This document shows, in pieces, positions 33,699 to 39,441 of a DNA stretch of 42,883 nucleotides. The stretch is from Thermodesulfovibrionia bacterium (GTDB lineage: Bacteria; Nitrospirota; Thermodesulfovibrionia; UBA6902): contig CALZGI010000015.1 of the NCBI GenBank assembly GCA_945786855.1, positions 1 through 42,883 on the forward strand, in the 5' to 3' direction. Positions within the stretch are counted from its first letter, which is position 1, and the number at the start of each line of letters is the position of its first letter. The notes below the pieces were generated by a model. It had not been told where the DNA came from. It saw only the letters and a program-made list of their open reading frames with translations, and did not search any database. The translations under genes and the position numbers were made by a program.

Positions 33699-35000
33699 TT
33701 ACTTCTTCTTCAACGCCTCTTCTACTGTCTTGATGGCACAGAATTCTCCGCACATACTGCACACCCGTGACTCACCGGGAGGGACTTCAGCACGCCATTT
33801 TTTCACCCTCTCCGGATTCAGGGAAAGCTCTATCTGCCCGTTCCAGTCAAGCGCTTTTCTTCTTCTCGCCATTTCATTGTCGATCTCGATTGCACCCTTT
33901 ACACCCTTAGCGATATCAGCAGCATGAGCGGCGATTTTTGAGGCAATGACCCCCTCTTTGACATCCTCAATGCCGGGAAGCCGAATGTGTTCAGAAGGTG
34001 TCACATAGCAGAGAAAGTCCGCACCTGCAGCACCGCCGACAGCGCCCCCGATTGCGGCAGCTATGTGGTCGTACCCCATCGCAATGTCTGTCACGAGAGG
34101 CCCTAATACATAGAAGGGGGCACCTTTGCATATCTCTTTCTGCATTTTCATGTTCAGTTCGACCTGATTCAGCGGAACATGGCCGGGACCTTCAATAATG
34201 ACCTGGACGCCCGCATTCAGCGCCCTGTCTCTCAGCGCCCCGAGCGTCAGCAGTTCATCGATCTGCGTCCTGTCTGTGGCATCGGACAGACAGCCCGGCC
34301 GTGCACCGTCACCCAGGCTCAGAGTCAGATCATATTTCCTCGATAATTCAAGAAGTCTGTCATATTCTTCAAAGAGCGGATTTTCCCGGTCGTTGTATAT
34401 CATCCATTCAACAAGAAAAGCCCCGCCCCGGCTCACAATATCGAGAATTCGTCCGTCTTCCCTCAATGTCTCAATCGTTCTTCTTGTAAGACCGCAGTGG
34501 ACAGTAACAAAATCAACGCCTTCTTCAGCATGCCCCTCTATTGCATCAAAGAGGTCGTCAACGCTCATCTTTGCTATGGAACCCCTGTCTTCAGCCGCTT
34601 TCGCCACTGCTTCGTAAATGGGGACCGTTCCGACAGAAATTGTTGATTTTCTGAGAAGCAGCCTTCGAATGTCTTTTATGGGCCCTCCCGTAGAAAGGTC
34701 CATGACGGCATCAGCACCATACTGAATCAGCACATCCAGTTTTTCCATTTCTTCTTCAAGGGAAATTCTGTCCCTCGAGGTTCCTATGTTGGCATTGATT
34801 TTCGTCCTCAGGCCTTTCCCGATACCCAGCGGTTTTATATCGTGGTTCCTGTTTCTTGAGATAACCGTGCGGCCCTGTGCAATATCTTCGGCAAGCTCTT
34901 CGGGAGCAACGCCCTCTTCTTCAGCGACGTGCTTCATTTCATCGGTAATGATCCCCTGCCTGGCAATCTCAATTCTTGTATTCCCTGATGCTTTCATCAT
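33699..35000 (-). CDS. thiC: Phosphomethylpyrimidine synthase ThiC
   Basis: 433 residues, the short form found in many anaerobes. It converts aminoimidazole ribotide to HMP phosphate by radical SAM chemistry. IARQGIITDEMKHVAEEE starts it, then LGIGKGLRTKINANIGTS, MDLSTGGPIKDIRRLLL and GALRDRALNAGVQVIIEGPGHVPLNQVE. The C-terminal cluster motif CSMCGEFC has Cys414, Cys417 and Cys421 (CX2CX3C, as in short ThiCs). AAGGAG lies upstream of the tandem ATGs. It is last in the thi operon, 118 nt after thiE, and may also have its own promoter. Confidence 0.97.
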   Translation of the reverse strand: MMKASGNTRIEIARQGIITDEMKHVAEEEGVAPEELAEDIAQGRTVISRNRNHDIKPLGIGKGLRTKINANIGTSRDRISLEEEMEKLDVLIQYGADAVMDLSTGGPIKDIRRLLLRKSTISVGTVPIYEAVAKAAEDRGSIAKMSVDDLFDAIEGHAEEGVDFVTVHCGLTRRTIETLREDGRILDIVSRGGAFLVEWMIYNDRENPLFEEYDRLLELSRKYDLTLSLGDGARPGCLSDATDRTQIDELLTLGALRDRALNAGVQVIIEGPGHVPLNQVELNMKMQKEICKGAPFYVLGPLVTDIAMGYDHIAAAIGGAVGGAAGADFLCYVTPSEHIRLPGIEDVKEGVIASKIAAHAADIAKGVKGAIEIDNEMARRRKALDWNGQIELSLNPERVKKWRAEVPPGESRVCSMCGEFCAIKTVEEALKKK

Positions 35001-35118: not shown

Positions 35119-35805
35119 TTATAATGCAGACAGTATTCTCTCTGTCTTCCCTTTAATGTCATCATCCTTTAATATTTCAGATATCATGGCCACGCCATAG
35201 ACCCCCGTCTTATGAACGCTTTGTATCCTGCTTTCCTTTATCCCTCCCAAAGCAAACACCGGAAGCTTTATTTTTGTGCACACGTCTCGAAGACCGTGCA
35301 ATCCGACGGGGGCACCATACGCAGTTTTTGAGGGGGTCCTGTATACAGGTCCGAAAGTTATGAAATCCGCTCCCCCCTTTTCAGCCTTTTTCGCTTCCTT
35401 CAGAGTGTGTGTTGAAACACCGATCATGAGTCTCTTCTTTACCACTTTTCTGACAGCCTCTACAGGAATACTGTTTTGAGCAAGATGTACTCCCTCTGCA
35501 CCAACAGCAAGAGCAACATCGATCCTGTCATTAATAAATAACGCTGCATCATATTGCTTTGTTAAATTTCTCATTTTGTAAGCCAGCGTTAAAAGGTCTC
35601 TCGTACTTAAATCCTTTTCCCTGAGTTGTATTGCTCTGGCCCCTCCCTTTAAAGCCTTTTGAACCGCGGGTAACAGTGTGCGGGTTGCAGAATATGCTTT
35701 GCCGGTTTCCGATAACAGTTTTCTGTCTGTTATAAGGTAAAGCGTAAAGTCAGGAGACCTTTTTTTAATTCTTTTCCTGACAGCTGATCGCTGATCGCTG
35801 ATCAC
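35119..35805 (-). CDS. thiE: Thiamine-phosphate synthase ThiE
   Basis: 228 residues with a GTG start 5 nt after thiG. It joins HMP-PP and the thiazole phosphate. The core is LYLITDRKL, KGGARAIQLREKDLSTRDLL, LFINDRIDVALAVGAEGVHLAQ, GADFITFGPVYRTPSKTAYG and FALGGIKESRI. The first nine or so residues (ISDQRSAVR) are encoded by three copies of GATCAGC, so the N-terminus seems to come from a repeat. Homologues start near TLYLITDR; no better in-frame start with a Shine-Dalgarno is visible. Confidence 0.96.
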   Translation of the reverse strand: MISDQRSAVRKRIKKRSPDFTLYLITDRKLLSETGKAYSATRTLLPAVQKALKGGARAIQLREKDLSTRDLLTLAYKMRNLTKQYDAALFINDRIDVALAVGAEGVHLAQNSIPVEAVRKVVKKRLMIGVSTHTLKEAKKAEKGGADFITFGPVYRTPSKTAYGAPVGLHGLRDVCTKIKLPVFALGGIKESRIQSVHKTGVYGVAMISEILKDDDIKGKTERILSAL

Positions 35806-35810: not shown

Positions 35811-36581
35811 CTAAAGCATTCCCTCAATGGGGCTGCTCGCCATTGCGTACAGTTTTCTCTGGATCCTTCCTGCCCTGTATGCCAGCCGGCCTGCTATCAC
35901 TCCATGCTTCATCGCATCGGCCATTGCAATGGGATCACGCGCCCCCGCAATCGCTGTATTCAGCAGCACCGCATCGCAGCCAAGTTCCATCGCGACAGCA
36001 ACATCAGATGCGGTCCCCACTCCGGCATCGACGATAATCGGCACCGTGGCCTGCTCAAGTATTATTTTAATATTGTAAGGATTCCGTATTCCCAGCCCTG
36101 ACCCTATCGGAGCAGCAAGGGGCATAACTGCTGAAGCACCTGCATCGACAAGCCTCCGGGCCATGATCGGATCATCATTAATATAGGGAAAAACGATAAA
36201 CCCTTCTTTTGCAAGTATTTCAGTTGCCTCGAGTGTCGCACAGGCGTCAGGGAAGAGCGTTTGTTCATCTCCTATCACCTCAAGCTTGATCAGGTCCGAG
36301 ACGCCCGTCTCCCTGGCAAGCCGTGCATACCGCAATGCATCTTCCAGGGTGTAGCAGCCTGCCGTGTTCGGGAGGATCTTGTACTTTTTCGGATCAATAA
36401 AATCAAGAAGGTTCTCAGACTTGTTATCAAAAATATTCGTCCTTCGTACAGCCACAGTCACCACATCGGCGCCGGATACCTCAATCGCTTTCGCAGTCTC
36501 TTCAAAATCTTTATACTTCCCCGTTCCAACCCAGAGTCTGGATTTGAACTCAATCCCCTTAATAACAAATCTGTCAGTCAT
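35811..36581 (-). CDS. thiG: Thiazole synthase ThiG
   Basis: 256 residues. It assembles the thiazole from DXP, the ThiS thiocarboxylate and dehydroglycine. [17 protein letters not shown], then [33 protein letters not shown] and [16 protein letters not shown] hold the Schiff-base lysine. [14 protein letters not shown] and [34 protein letters not shown] (in part) bind phosphate. GAGGAGA Shine-Dalgarno. It is 58 nt after thiS and 5 nt before thiE. Confidence 0.98.
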
Positions 36582-36639: not shown

Positions 36640-36840
36640 CTATCCACCCCCGACAAAGTTTACTATCTCAACAGAATCTCCCTCTTTCAGAAGATGATCC
36701 CCGTAATGCATCTTTTTAATTATATTCAAGTTGACTTCAACGGCAACCCTCGCAGGTTCAATGTCAAGTTTCTCAAGGAGGCCTGTGACTGTAAGGTCAT
36801 TTTGTACGTCTTTTTCATTTCCATTGATTATCAGTTTCAA
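36640..36840 (-). CDS. thiS: Sulfur-carrier protein ThiS
   Basis: 66 residues, TTG start with AGGAG 7 nt upstream. It is a ubiquitin-like fold ending in Gly-Gly (VEIVNFVGGG), whose C-terminus becomes the thiocarboxylate that gives sulfur to ThiG. MKLIINGNEKDV and VAVEVNLNIIKKMHYGDHLLKEGDSVE are typical. It is 40 nt after the ThiH/HydG-like gene. No thiF activating enzyme is in the operon. Confidence 0.96.
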   Translation of the reverse strand: MKLIINGNEKDVQNDLTVTGLLEKLDIEPARVAVEVNLNIIKKMHYGDHLLKEGDSVEIVNFVGGG

Positions 36841-36880: not shown

Positions 36881-38197
36881 CTAAATATGCAGGTCCCGTT
36901 TTCCGGCCTCTATGTTCTTCAGCTTGTCAGATAAACCGTTCCTGCTTTTCGATATTTCCTCATTCAGCATTCTGACCAACTGATCTCTCACCTCACCTGT
37001 CGCATAGTCTTCAACGTATTCCTTCAGAGACAGGATTGCGTTTTCATGACAGAAGGTCTTTATGGTTTTCTCCTCTGCCAGACTTTTGAACCGTTTTCCG
37101 CTTCTGCCTTCACGGTAACAGGCCGTGCACAGGCTCGGCATAAGTCCGAGACTTGCTATCTTTCCCACTACTTCTTCAAGACTTCTACTGTCTCCGATCT
37201 CGAATTGTTCAGTGTCTCCTTCGTTCATATATCCTCGCGGGCTTGTTTTTGACCCGGCTGATACCTGGGACGCACCGATTGAAAAAAGTTCGTCTCTCAG
37301 TGCAGACGGCTCTCTTGTTGATACAACAACACCGACATAAGGCAATGCCAGGCGGTACAGGGCAACTACCTTTTTAAAGTCTTCATCGCTGACTGAGTAC
37401 TTTAAATGATCCGCCGCAGAGCCCTGAGCCGGCTGAAGTCTCGGAACAGACAGCGTATGGGGACCAAAGCCATATTTTTTTATCAGCCTCCTGCAGTGGG
37501 CAATTAATGCAGTAACGTCCCATCGCCAGTCATAAAGCCCGAGCAGCACACCCATTCCAATGTCTTCAAATCCGGCTTTAATTGCCCTGTCCATGACACC
37601 GAATCGCCAGGTATAATCGGCCTTCGTTCCGGATGGGTGCAGATACCTGTAGGACGGCATGTGATATGTCTCCTGAAAACACTGATATACACCAACACCG
37701 GAATCCCTGAGCCGTTTGAAATCATCTATGCTCATGGGGGCAGCGTTCACATGCAGAATACGGATGTCTGTCCGGTCATAAATCTCATGTACTACTTTTT
37801 CAAAATAGTCTATTCCTGCGCGTTTTGGGTGTTCACTGGCAACCAGGAGCAGCCTTTTGTATCCCCTTGCCTCAAGAAGGGAGGCCTCCTCAACCGCTTC
37901 ATCAACGGTCAGTGTCTTTCTGACGGCATCCCTGTTCCCTTTTCTGAAACCGCAGTACAGGCAATCATTGGTGCACTCGCTCGACAAGTAAAGGGGTGCA
38001 AAAAGAACGATCCTCTTGCCATACACTTTTTCCTTGACTCTGCACGCTGCATCAAATATTTCAGACCATATATCACTGTCATTCACAGCAACCAGAGCTG
38101 ATACCTCAGGAAGACTCAAAGATTGCAAATCCAGTGATTTATCAAGGATCTCCCGTATGCGAGAAACATCTGGTTTGATCACTTCATTTTGATTCAT
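36881..38197 (-). CDS. thiH: Radical SAM tyrosine lyase: ThiH with HydG-type C-terminal cluster motif
   Basis: 438 residues. The radical SAM motif CX3CX2C is Cys75/Cys79/Cys82 (ECTNDCLYCGF). HVNAAPMSIDDFKRL, YQCFQETYHMPSYRYLHPSG and FGPHTLSVPRLQPA are shared by ThiH and HydG. The C-terminus holds Cys357, Cys360 and Cys383, exactly CX2CX22C (CTACYREGRSG...TFCHENAIL). In HydG this motif binds the auxiliary cluster that turns dehydroglycine into CO and cyanide; E. coli ThiH lacks it. The operon (TPP riboswitch, thiS, thiG) argues for making dehydroglycine for thiazole. GGAGAAAA Shine-Dalgarno. It could be a HydG relative used as ThiH; no hydE or hydF is present. Confidence 0.93.
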   Translation of the reverse strand: MNQNEVIKPDVSRIREILDKSLDLQSLSLPEVSALVAVNDSDIWSEIFDAACRVKEKVYGKRIVLFAPLYLSSECTNDCLYCGFRKGNRDAVRKTLTVDEAVEEASLLEARGYKRLLLVASEHPKRAGIDYFEKVVHEIYDRTDIRILHVNAAPMSIDDFKRLRDSGVGVYQCFQETYHMPSYRYLHPSGTKADYTWRFGVMDRAIKAGFEDIGMGVLLGLYDWRWDVTALIAHCRRLIKKYGFGPHTLSVPRLQPAQGSAADHLKYSVSDEDFKKVVALYRLALPYVGVVVSTREPSALRDELFSIGASQVSAGSKTSPRGYMNEGDTEQFEIGDSRSLEEVVGKIASLGLMPSLCTACYREGRSGKRFKSLAEEKTIKTFCHENAILSLKEYVEDYATGEVRDQLVRMLNEEISKSRNGLSDKLKNIEAGKRDLHI

Positions 38198-38207
38198 TTT
38201 TCTCCAA

Positions 38208-38255
38208 ATAAAAAAACCGTATCCCCTGGTAACACTAATCTGTGAGGATACGGTT
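38208..38255 (-). terminator. Intrinsic terminator of the TPP riboswitch
   Basis: On the minus strand AACCGTATCC (38255-38246) pairs with GGATACGGTT (38224-38215), followed by TTTTTTTATTT. The T-run ends only a few bases before the thiH Shine-Dalgarno, so termination would stop thiH transcription. Confidence 0.9.
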
Positions 38256-38266
38256 TAACTTGTATA

Positions 38267-38354
38267 TTTCCTTTCCTCCGCTGGGATTAACCAGTTCAGG
38301 TTCAAGGGGTCTTCCGATGATTCCGGAACTCTCAGGCGCTGCCTCCCCCAGGGT
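38267..38354 (-). promoter_or_regulatory. TPP (THI-box) riboswitch
   Basis: Read on the minus strand it has the THI-box order: GGGGGAGGCAGCGCCTGAGA, a variable hairpin (TTCCGG-AATCAT-CGGAA), then GACCCCTTGAACCTGA, CTGGTTAATCCCAGCGGAGGAAAG. CTGAGA, GAACCTGA and CCAGCGGAGG are the conserved ligand-site segments. Thiamine pyrophosphate binding would favour the terminator at 38208-38255. It controls thiH-thiS-thiG-thiE and probably thiC. Confidence 0.95.
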
Positions 38355-38360
38355 AATGTA

Positions 38361-38389
38361 AGTATACTGCGTCATTCCATGCGTGTCAA
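38361..38389 (-). promoter_or_regulatory. Promoter of the thiamine operon
   Basis: On the minus strand a perfect TTGACA (38389-38384), 17-nt spacer, TATACT (38366-38361). The predicted start site near 38354 coincides with the 5' edge of the TPP riboswitch. Confidence 0.8.
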
Positions 38390-38562
38390 GCAACCTGAAG
38401 ACCTGCATGGCCGGACTATTGCTGATTATTCTGATCATCCGTCTGCATCGGCCAATCGATATTTGTGTTACCGGGCATGGGGCTATTTATCAGTGCGTAT
38501 CGGCACAGGTATGTCAAAGGAGCGGATCGAGAAAAAATGCTGAAAATAATTTATTATTATCT

Positions 38563-39441
38563 GTGCAAAGTTACATAGTCACGATAGCAGCTTTTCTTAT
38601 TATTACATCGAATGTGTACGCATCGGGTACGTACCCTGTTGATAATCCTTCTACGCCATTAATCGGTCTCAGCGGGTTCTATACAATACAAGACAAAGAT
38701 TCTCTGATCGAGCTTGCCAGAACATATAGTGTAGGATATAACGAAATAACCGATGCAAACATTCATGTAGATCCCTGGGTGCCTGATGCAGGAACAAGAA
38801 TAATAATACCAACCACATGGCTGCTTCCTGAATCCATCAGAGATGAAGTTGTGATAAACCTTGCTGAACTGAGGTTGTATTTCTTCTATTCAGTCGACGG
38901 GCGCAAATATGTATCAACCTACCCTTTAGGCATCGGAAGTCAGGGTTTCAGTACTCCCACAGGCACCTTTAAAATAACTGCAAAAATCAAAGATCCTGTC
39001 TGGCGTATTCCGACAGGTTTCCGGGATGAATATCCTGACCTCCCGGACTTTGTCCGTCCCGGGCCTGACAACCCCCTCGGTAAATACTGGCTTCAGCTGT
39101 CTGTAAACGGATATGGGATTCATGGAACGAATAGACCATACGGGATAGGGCGCAGGGTCAGCCACGGGTGCATCAGGCTTTATCCGGAAGATATAGAAAC
39201 TCTGTATAAATTTATTAAACCGGGAACCAGGGTCCGGATAGTGAACGAGCCGGTTAAGGTGGGTTGGCATAACAACAAAGTCTATATTGAAGTGCACAGA
39301 TCGGAAATGGAACATTCGGACCTGATGAAAGCAGCCATACAGAAACTCAGCAGAAAGCACCTGCTTGAATATGTTGACACGCCCTTAATGGTCAATGAAG
39401 TAAAAAATGCAACAGGGCTTCCTGCCGATATTTCCAGATAG
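38563..39441 (+). CDS. L,D-transpeptidase (YkuD) with LysM-like N-terminus
   Basis: About 293 residues from GTG 38563, which begins a signal peptide (MQSYIVTIAAFLIITSNVYASG). The frame is open to 38383 but that part overlaps the thi promoter. An ATG at 38537 in another frame (MLKIIYYYLCKVT, then stop) would need a frameshift to join. A LysM-like region (FYTIQDKDSLIELARTYSVGYNEITDANIHVDPWVPDAGTRIIIP) precedes the YkuD domain with the catalytic motif HGTNRPYGIGRRVSHGCIRL (His, Ser-His-Gly-Cys). It crosslinks peptidoglycan or attaches lipoproteins. The alanine-zipper lipoprotein gene is convergent, 1 nt apart. Confidence 0.9.
   Translation: MQSYIVTIAAFLIITSNVYASGTYPVDNPSTPLIGLSGFYTIQDKDSLIELARTYSVGYNEITDANIHVDPWVPDAGTRIIIPTTWLLPESIRDEVVINLAELRLYFFYSVDGRKYVSTYPLGIGSQGFSTPTGTFKITAKIKDPVWRIPTGFRDEYPDLPDFVRPGPDNPLGKYWLQLSVNGYGIHGTNRPYGIGRRVSHGCIRLYPEDIETLYKFIKPGTRVRIVNEPVKVGWHNNKVYIEVHRSEMEHSDLMKAAIQKLSRKHLLEYVDTPLMVNEVKNATGLPADISR

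Follow-up and report, generated by a model that had tools for sequence, protein, structure and literature searches.

The thiamine operon and its leader

The window (the whole stretch of DNA that was analysed, 42,883 nucleotides from a Thermodesulfovibrionia bacterium of the phylum Nitrospirota) contains a thiamine synthesis operon in the order thiH-thiS-thiG-thiE-thiC, transcribed entirely from the reverse strand, of which the first gene is of the HydG type (Table 1). The first-pass annotation, made from the sequence of this DNA, had placed that gene at the head of such an operon behind a thiamine pyrophosphate (TPP) riboswitch, and both the match to RF00059 and the family profiles of the downstream genes bear this out. 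The leader hairpin was equalled in stability by no shuffled sequence. Because an aptamer, a terminator-like hairpin and a U-run precede the first gene, the operon is probably controlled by TPP through premature termination of transcription. Divergent from this leader is an open reading frame with an L,D-transpeptidase-like motif (IHGTNRPYGIGRRVSHGCIRL; 38383-39441, forward strand), and a c-di-GMP-I-GGC riboswitch (RF03167, 67.4 bits) is located at 514-601 on the reverse strand. Related loci that bear organism titles belong to Thermodesulfovibrionia or Nitrospirae bacteria and are 74-80% identical.

Table 1. Features of the thiamine operon and its leader, in window coordinates.
Feature	Position	Strand	Details
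TPP riboswitch aptamer	38256..38359	-	RF00059, 63.2 bits (gathering cut-off 54.3); about 60 bases upstream of the lyase gene
Hairpin resembling an intrinsic terminator, with a U-run after it; separates the aptamer from the gene	38214..38256	-	MFE -19.1 kcal/mol, z -4.5
GGAG, probable ribosome-binding site of the lyase gene	38202..38205	-	Read from the sequence
Putative tyrosine lyase of HydG architecture, in the thiH position	36881..38197	-	438 aa, ATG start; radical SAM barrel (Cys75/79/82), BATS domain, C-terminal auxiliary-cluster domain
Radical SAM motif CTNDCLYC, CX3CX2C (Cys75, Cys79, Cys82)	37952..37975	-	Located by position in the translation
His247 codon, equivalent of the labile (dangler) iron histidine of HydG	37457..37459	-
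Auxiliary-cluster motif Cys357-X2-Cys360-X22-Cys383	37049..37129	-	Context CTACYREGRSG
thiS, sulfur carrier protein with GG end	36640..36840	-	TIGR01683, 76.8 bits (cut-off 37.45)
thiG, thiazole synthase	35811..36581	-	PF05690, 370 bits; 44% identity to E. coli ThiG
thiE, thiamine phosphate synthase	35119..35805	-	TIGR00693, 200.5 bits (cut-off 145.1)
thiC, phosphomethylpyrimidine synthase	33699..35000	-	TIGR00190, 608 bits (cut-off 460)

Ligands, fold and family membership of the lyase

Both cysteine motifs of the first-pass annotation, the CX3CX2C of radical SAM enzymes and an exact CX2CX22C, are present at Cys75/79/82 and Cys357/360/383, and its identification of the second as the HydG auxiliary-cluster motif holds. 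With HydG of T. italicus (4wcx; E 1e-118) the lyase can be aligned from end to end, and with HydG of C. hydrogenoformans (4rtb; E 2e-109) from residue 11 to residue 397. Both alignments include the auxiliary cysteines, and the motif matches residue for residue; the same motif recurs in every relative examined from the thi-operon class described below (class A). Alignment with the ThiH structure 7pd1 reaches residue 354 only. The auxiliary cysteines occur in none of seven reference classical ThiH proteins, which end after the barrel, in agreement with the earlier statement that classical ThiH has no such domain. One ligand had been overlooked: His247, which lies within GPHTLSVPR in the alignment with HydG and corresponds to the GPHT histidine that we take to be an iron ligand of HydG (His265 in T. 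italicus). A histidine ligand of the labile iron of HydG has been described (PMC6212873).

ThiH and HydG are close relatives that mix in profile searches (PMC3226654). The lyase scores 425 bits against the HydG equivalog TIGR03955, above its cut-off of 312.15, and 298.7 bits against the ThiH family TIGR02351, below its cut-off of 380. All of the tyrosine-binding residues named for ThiH and HydG (PMC9046217) are found in it, among them the crown residues and arginines Thr294, Arg295, Arg301, Ser313 and Ser316. At the position of Glu158 of TcThiH it has Asn151, as in HydG; this replacement is a described difference between the two families, and the glutamate that compensates for it in HydG (PMC9046217) is equivalent to Glu122. 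The AlphaFold model (pLDDT 85, pTM 0.89) superposes at full length on 4wcx with a TM score of 0.91 over 447 columns, and on ThiH with a TM score of 0.72. It is very probable that the C-terminal domain harbours an auxiliary [4Fe-4S] cluster, with His247 perhaps holding an additional iron, at the base of the cavity in which tyrosine would be held.

The lyase thus shares with HydG its full-length fold, both cluster motifs, the extra-iron histidine, asparagine rather than glutamate at the carboxylate position and about 41% identity, but unlike canonical HydG it is encoded in a thi operon under a TPP riboswitch, lies outside the canonical clade and has arginine-to-isoleucine and asparagine-to-histidine replacements on the strand of Asn151. 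With ThiH it shares the tyrosine-binding residues, the radical SAM barrel and the thi operon context, but it differs in its auxiliary domain, in Asn151, and in sequence (about 30% identity). The tryptophan lyase NosL (4r33, 6htk) is a radical SAM lyase of aromatic amino acids with the same fold, but is only about 25% identical and lacks both the auxiliary domain and an equivalent of Arg306 of ThiH and HydG. The lyase is best read as neither a canonical HydG nor a classical ThiH.

Hydrogenase maturation genes in the genome and its relatives

HydG is the textbook source of CO and cyanide for [FeFe] hydrogenases, and this role is the only explanation given for its second iron site. The genome of the window (97.7% complete, 6.8% contamination) lacks the usual setting of HydG: no HydE and no [FeFe] hydrogenase were found in it, nothing came near the HydF cut-off, and the window itself contains none of the three genes, as the first-pass annotation had observed of the neighbourhood. 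There is likewise no second ThiH or HydG, the other match being BioB, so that the genome offers neither a hydEFA set nor a separate canonical thiH. A single MoeB/ThiF-type adenylyltransferase is encoded, by which ThiS can possibly be activated.

The survey of relatives covered 41 genomes, 35 of them from the window's order; of these 35, 30 had one HydG-type gene each, and 29 of the 30 proteins passed the HydG cut-off. Neither HydF, nor ThiH or the alternative enzyme ThiO above their cut-offs, was found in any of the 41. Recurrence of this gene with its motif across dozens of independent genomes rules out misassembly or a chance pattern of cysteines. Whole genomes were sampled within Nitrospirota: of 396, 59 had a ThiH/HydG-like match and 52 passed the HydG cut-off, only eight of these also having HydF. 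The HydG name is over-assigned in this phylum by TIGR03955, and with HydF missing from 44 of 52 genomes above the cut-off, a HydG call alone is no proof of hydrogenase maturation. No [FeFe] hydrogenase was found in 18 HydF-less genomes tested from four further families (f23, f24, f27 and f28). Beyond the phylum, where solved structures and 35 plasmid records were covered, the plasmid matches were canonical HydG, classical ThiH and one BioB only; a search of viral contigs returned no relatives.

Gene neighbourhoods in Nitrospirota

The Nitrospirota loci fall into sharply separate classes. Class A consists of thiHSGEC operons with a HydG-type gene, in the window's order (families f1, f3, f4 and f5) and in f23 and f27. 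Class B is the hydrogenase operon hydA-aspA-hydG-hydF-hydE of f9 and f12, with the exception of genome G215, which has hydF on another contig. In class C (f28), HydG adjoins HydE without HydF, in class D (f24) the HydG-type gene is alone, and class E (f26) comprises thi operons encoding a HydG-like barrel whose C-terminus is degenerate.

The thi gene order is kept in every genome of the order with enough flanking sequence, as well as in f23 and f27, and a TPP riboswitch lies upstream in all seven further thi-operon loci scanned, which come from seven families. The class D gene differs from that of the window in being distant from thiG-thiE-thiC (L116-L118, L139, L140); since the gene directly upstream of it is a thiF with a ThiS-like N-terminus, class D is also thiamine-linked. 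The proteins of f23, f24 and f27, at 52-55% identity, share with the lyase its ligands, signature substitutions and thiamine context, and the lack of HydF in their genomes.

Several other Nitrospirota have thiSGEC or thiGEC operons (L217-L222, L225, L231) that include no thiH or thiO, and none was found above cut-off in the genomes of these that were searched. There is therefore a further source of dehydroglycine in the phylum apart from ThiH and ThiO. The argument that the lyase must be a ThiH as the sole source of this compound was weakened by these operons and has been dropped, and other sources besides the lyase may exist.

Two variations on the auxiliary domain were observed. The f26 proteins (L146, L148, L149) combine a HydG-like barrel with a short degenerate C-terminus (CRRC, no iron-binding histidine) in thi operons, that of L148 being under a TPP riboswitch, and a protein of genome G071 (L150) has a HydG-like barrel without the auxiliary domain and was not found to adjoin thi genes; together they offer a natural contrast for tracing how the domain was lost or gained. 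In HydG of f12 (L108, L109, L110, L112) and of a Peptoclostridium plasmid (L170), the second auxiliary cysteine is replaced by glycine and a new cysteine appears three residues on (CTAGYRC). These proteins also have an altered crown, with threonine changed to alanine and serine to aspartate, and in f12 additionally serine to threonine. The f12 genes sit in full hydA-aspA-hydG-hydF-hydE operons, and an altered substrate or cluster is possible for this CTAGYRC type.

Another observation concerns f28, in which HydG is preceded by a fusion of HypC to HydE (L100:823-3654, L103:6282-9050 and L142:5528-8399, all on the reverse strand; also L101, L104 and L145); in two genomes HypC, HydE and HydG form one open reading frame (922 and 943 aa). 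These genes end an operon for a [NiFe] sulfhydrogenase-type enzyme and its maturation protease, in genomes with no HydF and no [FeFe] hydrogenase; HypD, HypE and HypF were not found in the approximately 1.0 of 2.5 Mb searched of one fusion-bearing genome. The arrangement suggests that HydE and HydG of f28 function in [NiFe]-hydrogenase maturation, perhaps as an anaerobic, tyrosine-derived source of CO and cyanide. No description of HydG with HypC, or of HydG-type enzymes in thi operons, was found in the open-access literature.

Conservation and phylogeny of the thi-linked proteins

None of the three auxiliary cysteines is replaced, and neither is the histidine, in any of the 39 class A and class D proteins checked, that of the window included, and at the DNA level the third positions of these four codons vary among the 39. 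Within class A, pairs of proteins are on average 73% identical in the barrel, 71% in residues 354-400 and 49% in the tail (401-438). By these sequence comparisons, the auxiliary ligands are under purifying selection, and the site is kept rather than decaying.

With ThiH as the root, the full-length HydG-type proteins all group together. Among them, the hydrogenase-linked HydG proteins, with those of class C, are a clade (support 100/100 at full length, 98/98 for the barrel only) that excludes the thi-linked proteins, the lyase among them, in both trees. In the full-length tree, class A and f23 group with canonical HydG (98/97), leaving the f27 protein and class D outside; the barrel-only tree leaves the order of the thi-linked groups unresolved. 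A single thi-linked clade was not rejected by the AU test (p 0.08, or 0.32 with the thiF-linked class D). The thi-linked proteins could thus be either a grade or a sister group relative to canonical HydG, and in none of the trees made were they nested within hydrogenase HydG.

At ten alignment columns, the thi-linked proteins (class A, which includes f23 and f27, and class D) are wholly or almost uniform and differ from canonical HydG. They include T143 (G in canonical HydG), I147 (R), H149 (N), V170 (T), F210 (I/V), V291 (I) and L356 (F/Y), the last of which adjoins the first auxiliary cysteine; the distinction at columns 113 and 232 is less clean. Positions 147 and 149 are substituted relative to all 23 canonical HydG proteins. 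As residues 147, 149 and 151 alternate along strand E146-151 of the AlphaFold model, 147 and 149 are expected to point, like the substrate residue Asn151, into the cavity, towards its auxiliary end. The combination of changed cavity residues and unchanged ligands suggests a changed task for the second site.

Proposed role and alternative explanations

The lyase is very likely a dehydroglycine-forming ThiH of HydG architecture that functions in thiamine synthesis. That a HydG-like enzyme serves as ThiH in this lineage, one of two possibilities raised by the first-pass annotation, is well supported by synteny in six families, by the TPP riboswitches, by the position in the tree, and by the lack of HydF and [FeFe] hydrogenase. 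The cluster at Cys75/79/82 would split S-adenosylmethionine, and the resulting 5'-deoxyadenosyl radical would act on tyrosine held by Glu122, Asn151, Arg295, Arg301 and the crown of Thr294, Ser313 and Ser316, so as to break its Calpha-Cbeta bond and release p-cresol and dehydroglycine. Dehydroglycine would pass to ThiG, to be joined with 1-deoxy-D-xylulose 5-phosphate (DXP) and ThiS thiocarboxylate into the thiazole, and ThiE and ThiC would complete the pathway until TPP turned the operon off through the riboswitch terminator. The auxiliary site most likely holds, protects or hands over dehydroglycine, or performs another step, rather than making Fe(CO)2(CN)(Cys) for a hydrogenase. The lyase does, however, retain all ligands known for that site in HydG, so that CO and cyanide chemistry is possible as far as the sequence goes.

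Little credence can be given to a true HydG, a synthase of CO and cyanide for an [FeFe] hydrogenase that merely happens to be sited in a thi operon. Although the score of 425 bits against a cut-off of 312, the complete set of auxiliary ligands and the close superposition on HydG (TM 0.91) are what would be expected of such an enzyme, HydE, HydF and the hydrogenase were all missing from the genome, HydF from all 41 relatives, and the lyase falls outside the canonical clade. Displacement of a canonical HydG into the thi operon was rejected on this genome content and on the trees. The second possibility of the first-pass annotation, one enzyme for both pathways, finds no support in this organism and was also rejected, there being no detectable HydF or [FeFe] hydrogenase for it to serve. 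A broader version, in which the lyase makes dehydroglycine for ThiG and its auxiliary site makes CO, cyanide or an iron carbonyl for some other use, such as the ligands of a [NiFe] hydrogenase, is improbable. It would explain why the auxiliary cysteines and His247 are kept in 39 of 39 proteins as their third codon positions vary, and elsewhere in the phylum a canonical-type HydG is found in [NiFe] operons, either linked to HypC or fused with it; but the operon of the window is TPP-controlled and free of hydrogenase genes, and residues 147 and 149 of the cavity depart from all 23 canonical HydG proteins.

An auxiliary domain that is structural only, its cluster serving in folding or in docking to ThiG and performing no chemistry, is a somewhat unlikely explanation that nevertheless outranks the other alternatives. 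The tail is far less conserved than the barrel (49% versus 73% pairwise identity), and related lineages have a degenerate domain (f26, in thi operons) or none at all (G071), yet the motif region is about as conserved as the barrel (71%), and His247 is invariant even though it is not needed to hold a cubane. Provision of iron or sulfur for the thiazole by the auxiliary site, for instance as cysteine or sulfide on the extra iron, is very improbable. The extra iron of HydG carries a free cysteine (PMC6212873) and no thiF was seen in the class A operons; however, the usual sulfur route is available, since the operon supplies a thiS ending in GG and the genome a MoeB/ThiF-type enzyme.

Evolutionary implications

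In the ThiH-rooted tree, the position of the thi-linked proteins is intermediate between ThiH and hydrogenase HydG, and those deep branches for which a gene context was identified are thiamine-linked. A tentative scenario, which is possible but on balance doubtful, is that the HydG auxiliary cluster arose not for hydrogenases but in a tyrosine lyase of the thiamine pathway that survives in these Nitrospirota, where the auxiliary site would perform a second, so far unrecognised step on dehydroglycine, and that this enzyme was later taken over by hydrogenase maturation for the production of CO and cyanide, for [FeFe] hydrogenases and possibly, in f28, for [NiFe] hydrogenases. As the lyase is a HydG-built enzyme in a genome with no detectable [FeFe] hydrogenase, its HydG-type second metal site probably has another job, in vitamin synthesis. 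A whole order of bacteria has preserved every ligand of this site in a vitamin pathway that operates without [FeFe] hydrogenase, which makes two questions testable: what the site does where there is no such hydrogenase, and how the synthesis of CO and cyanide may have evolved from the cleavage of tyrosine.
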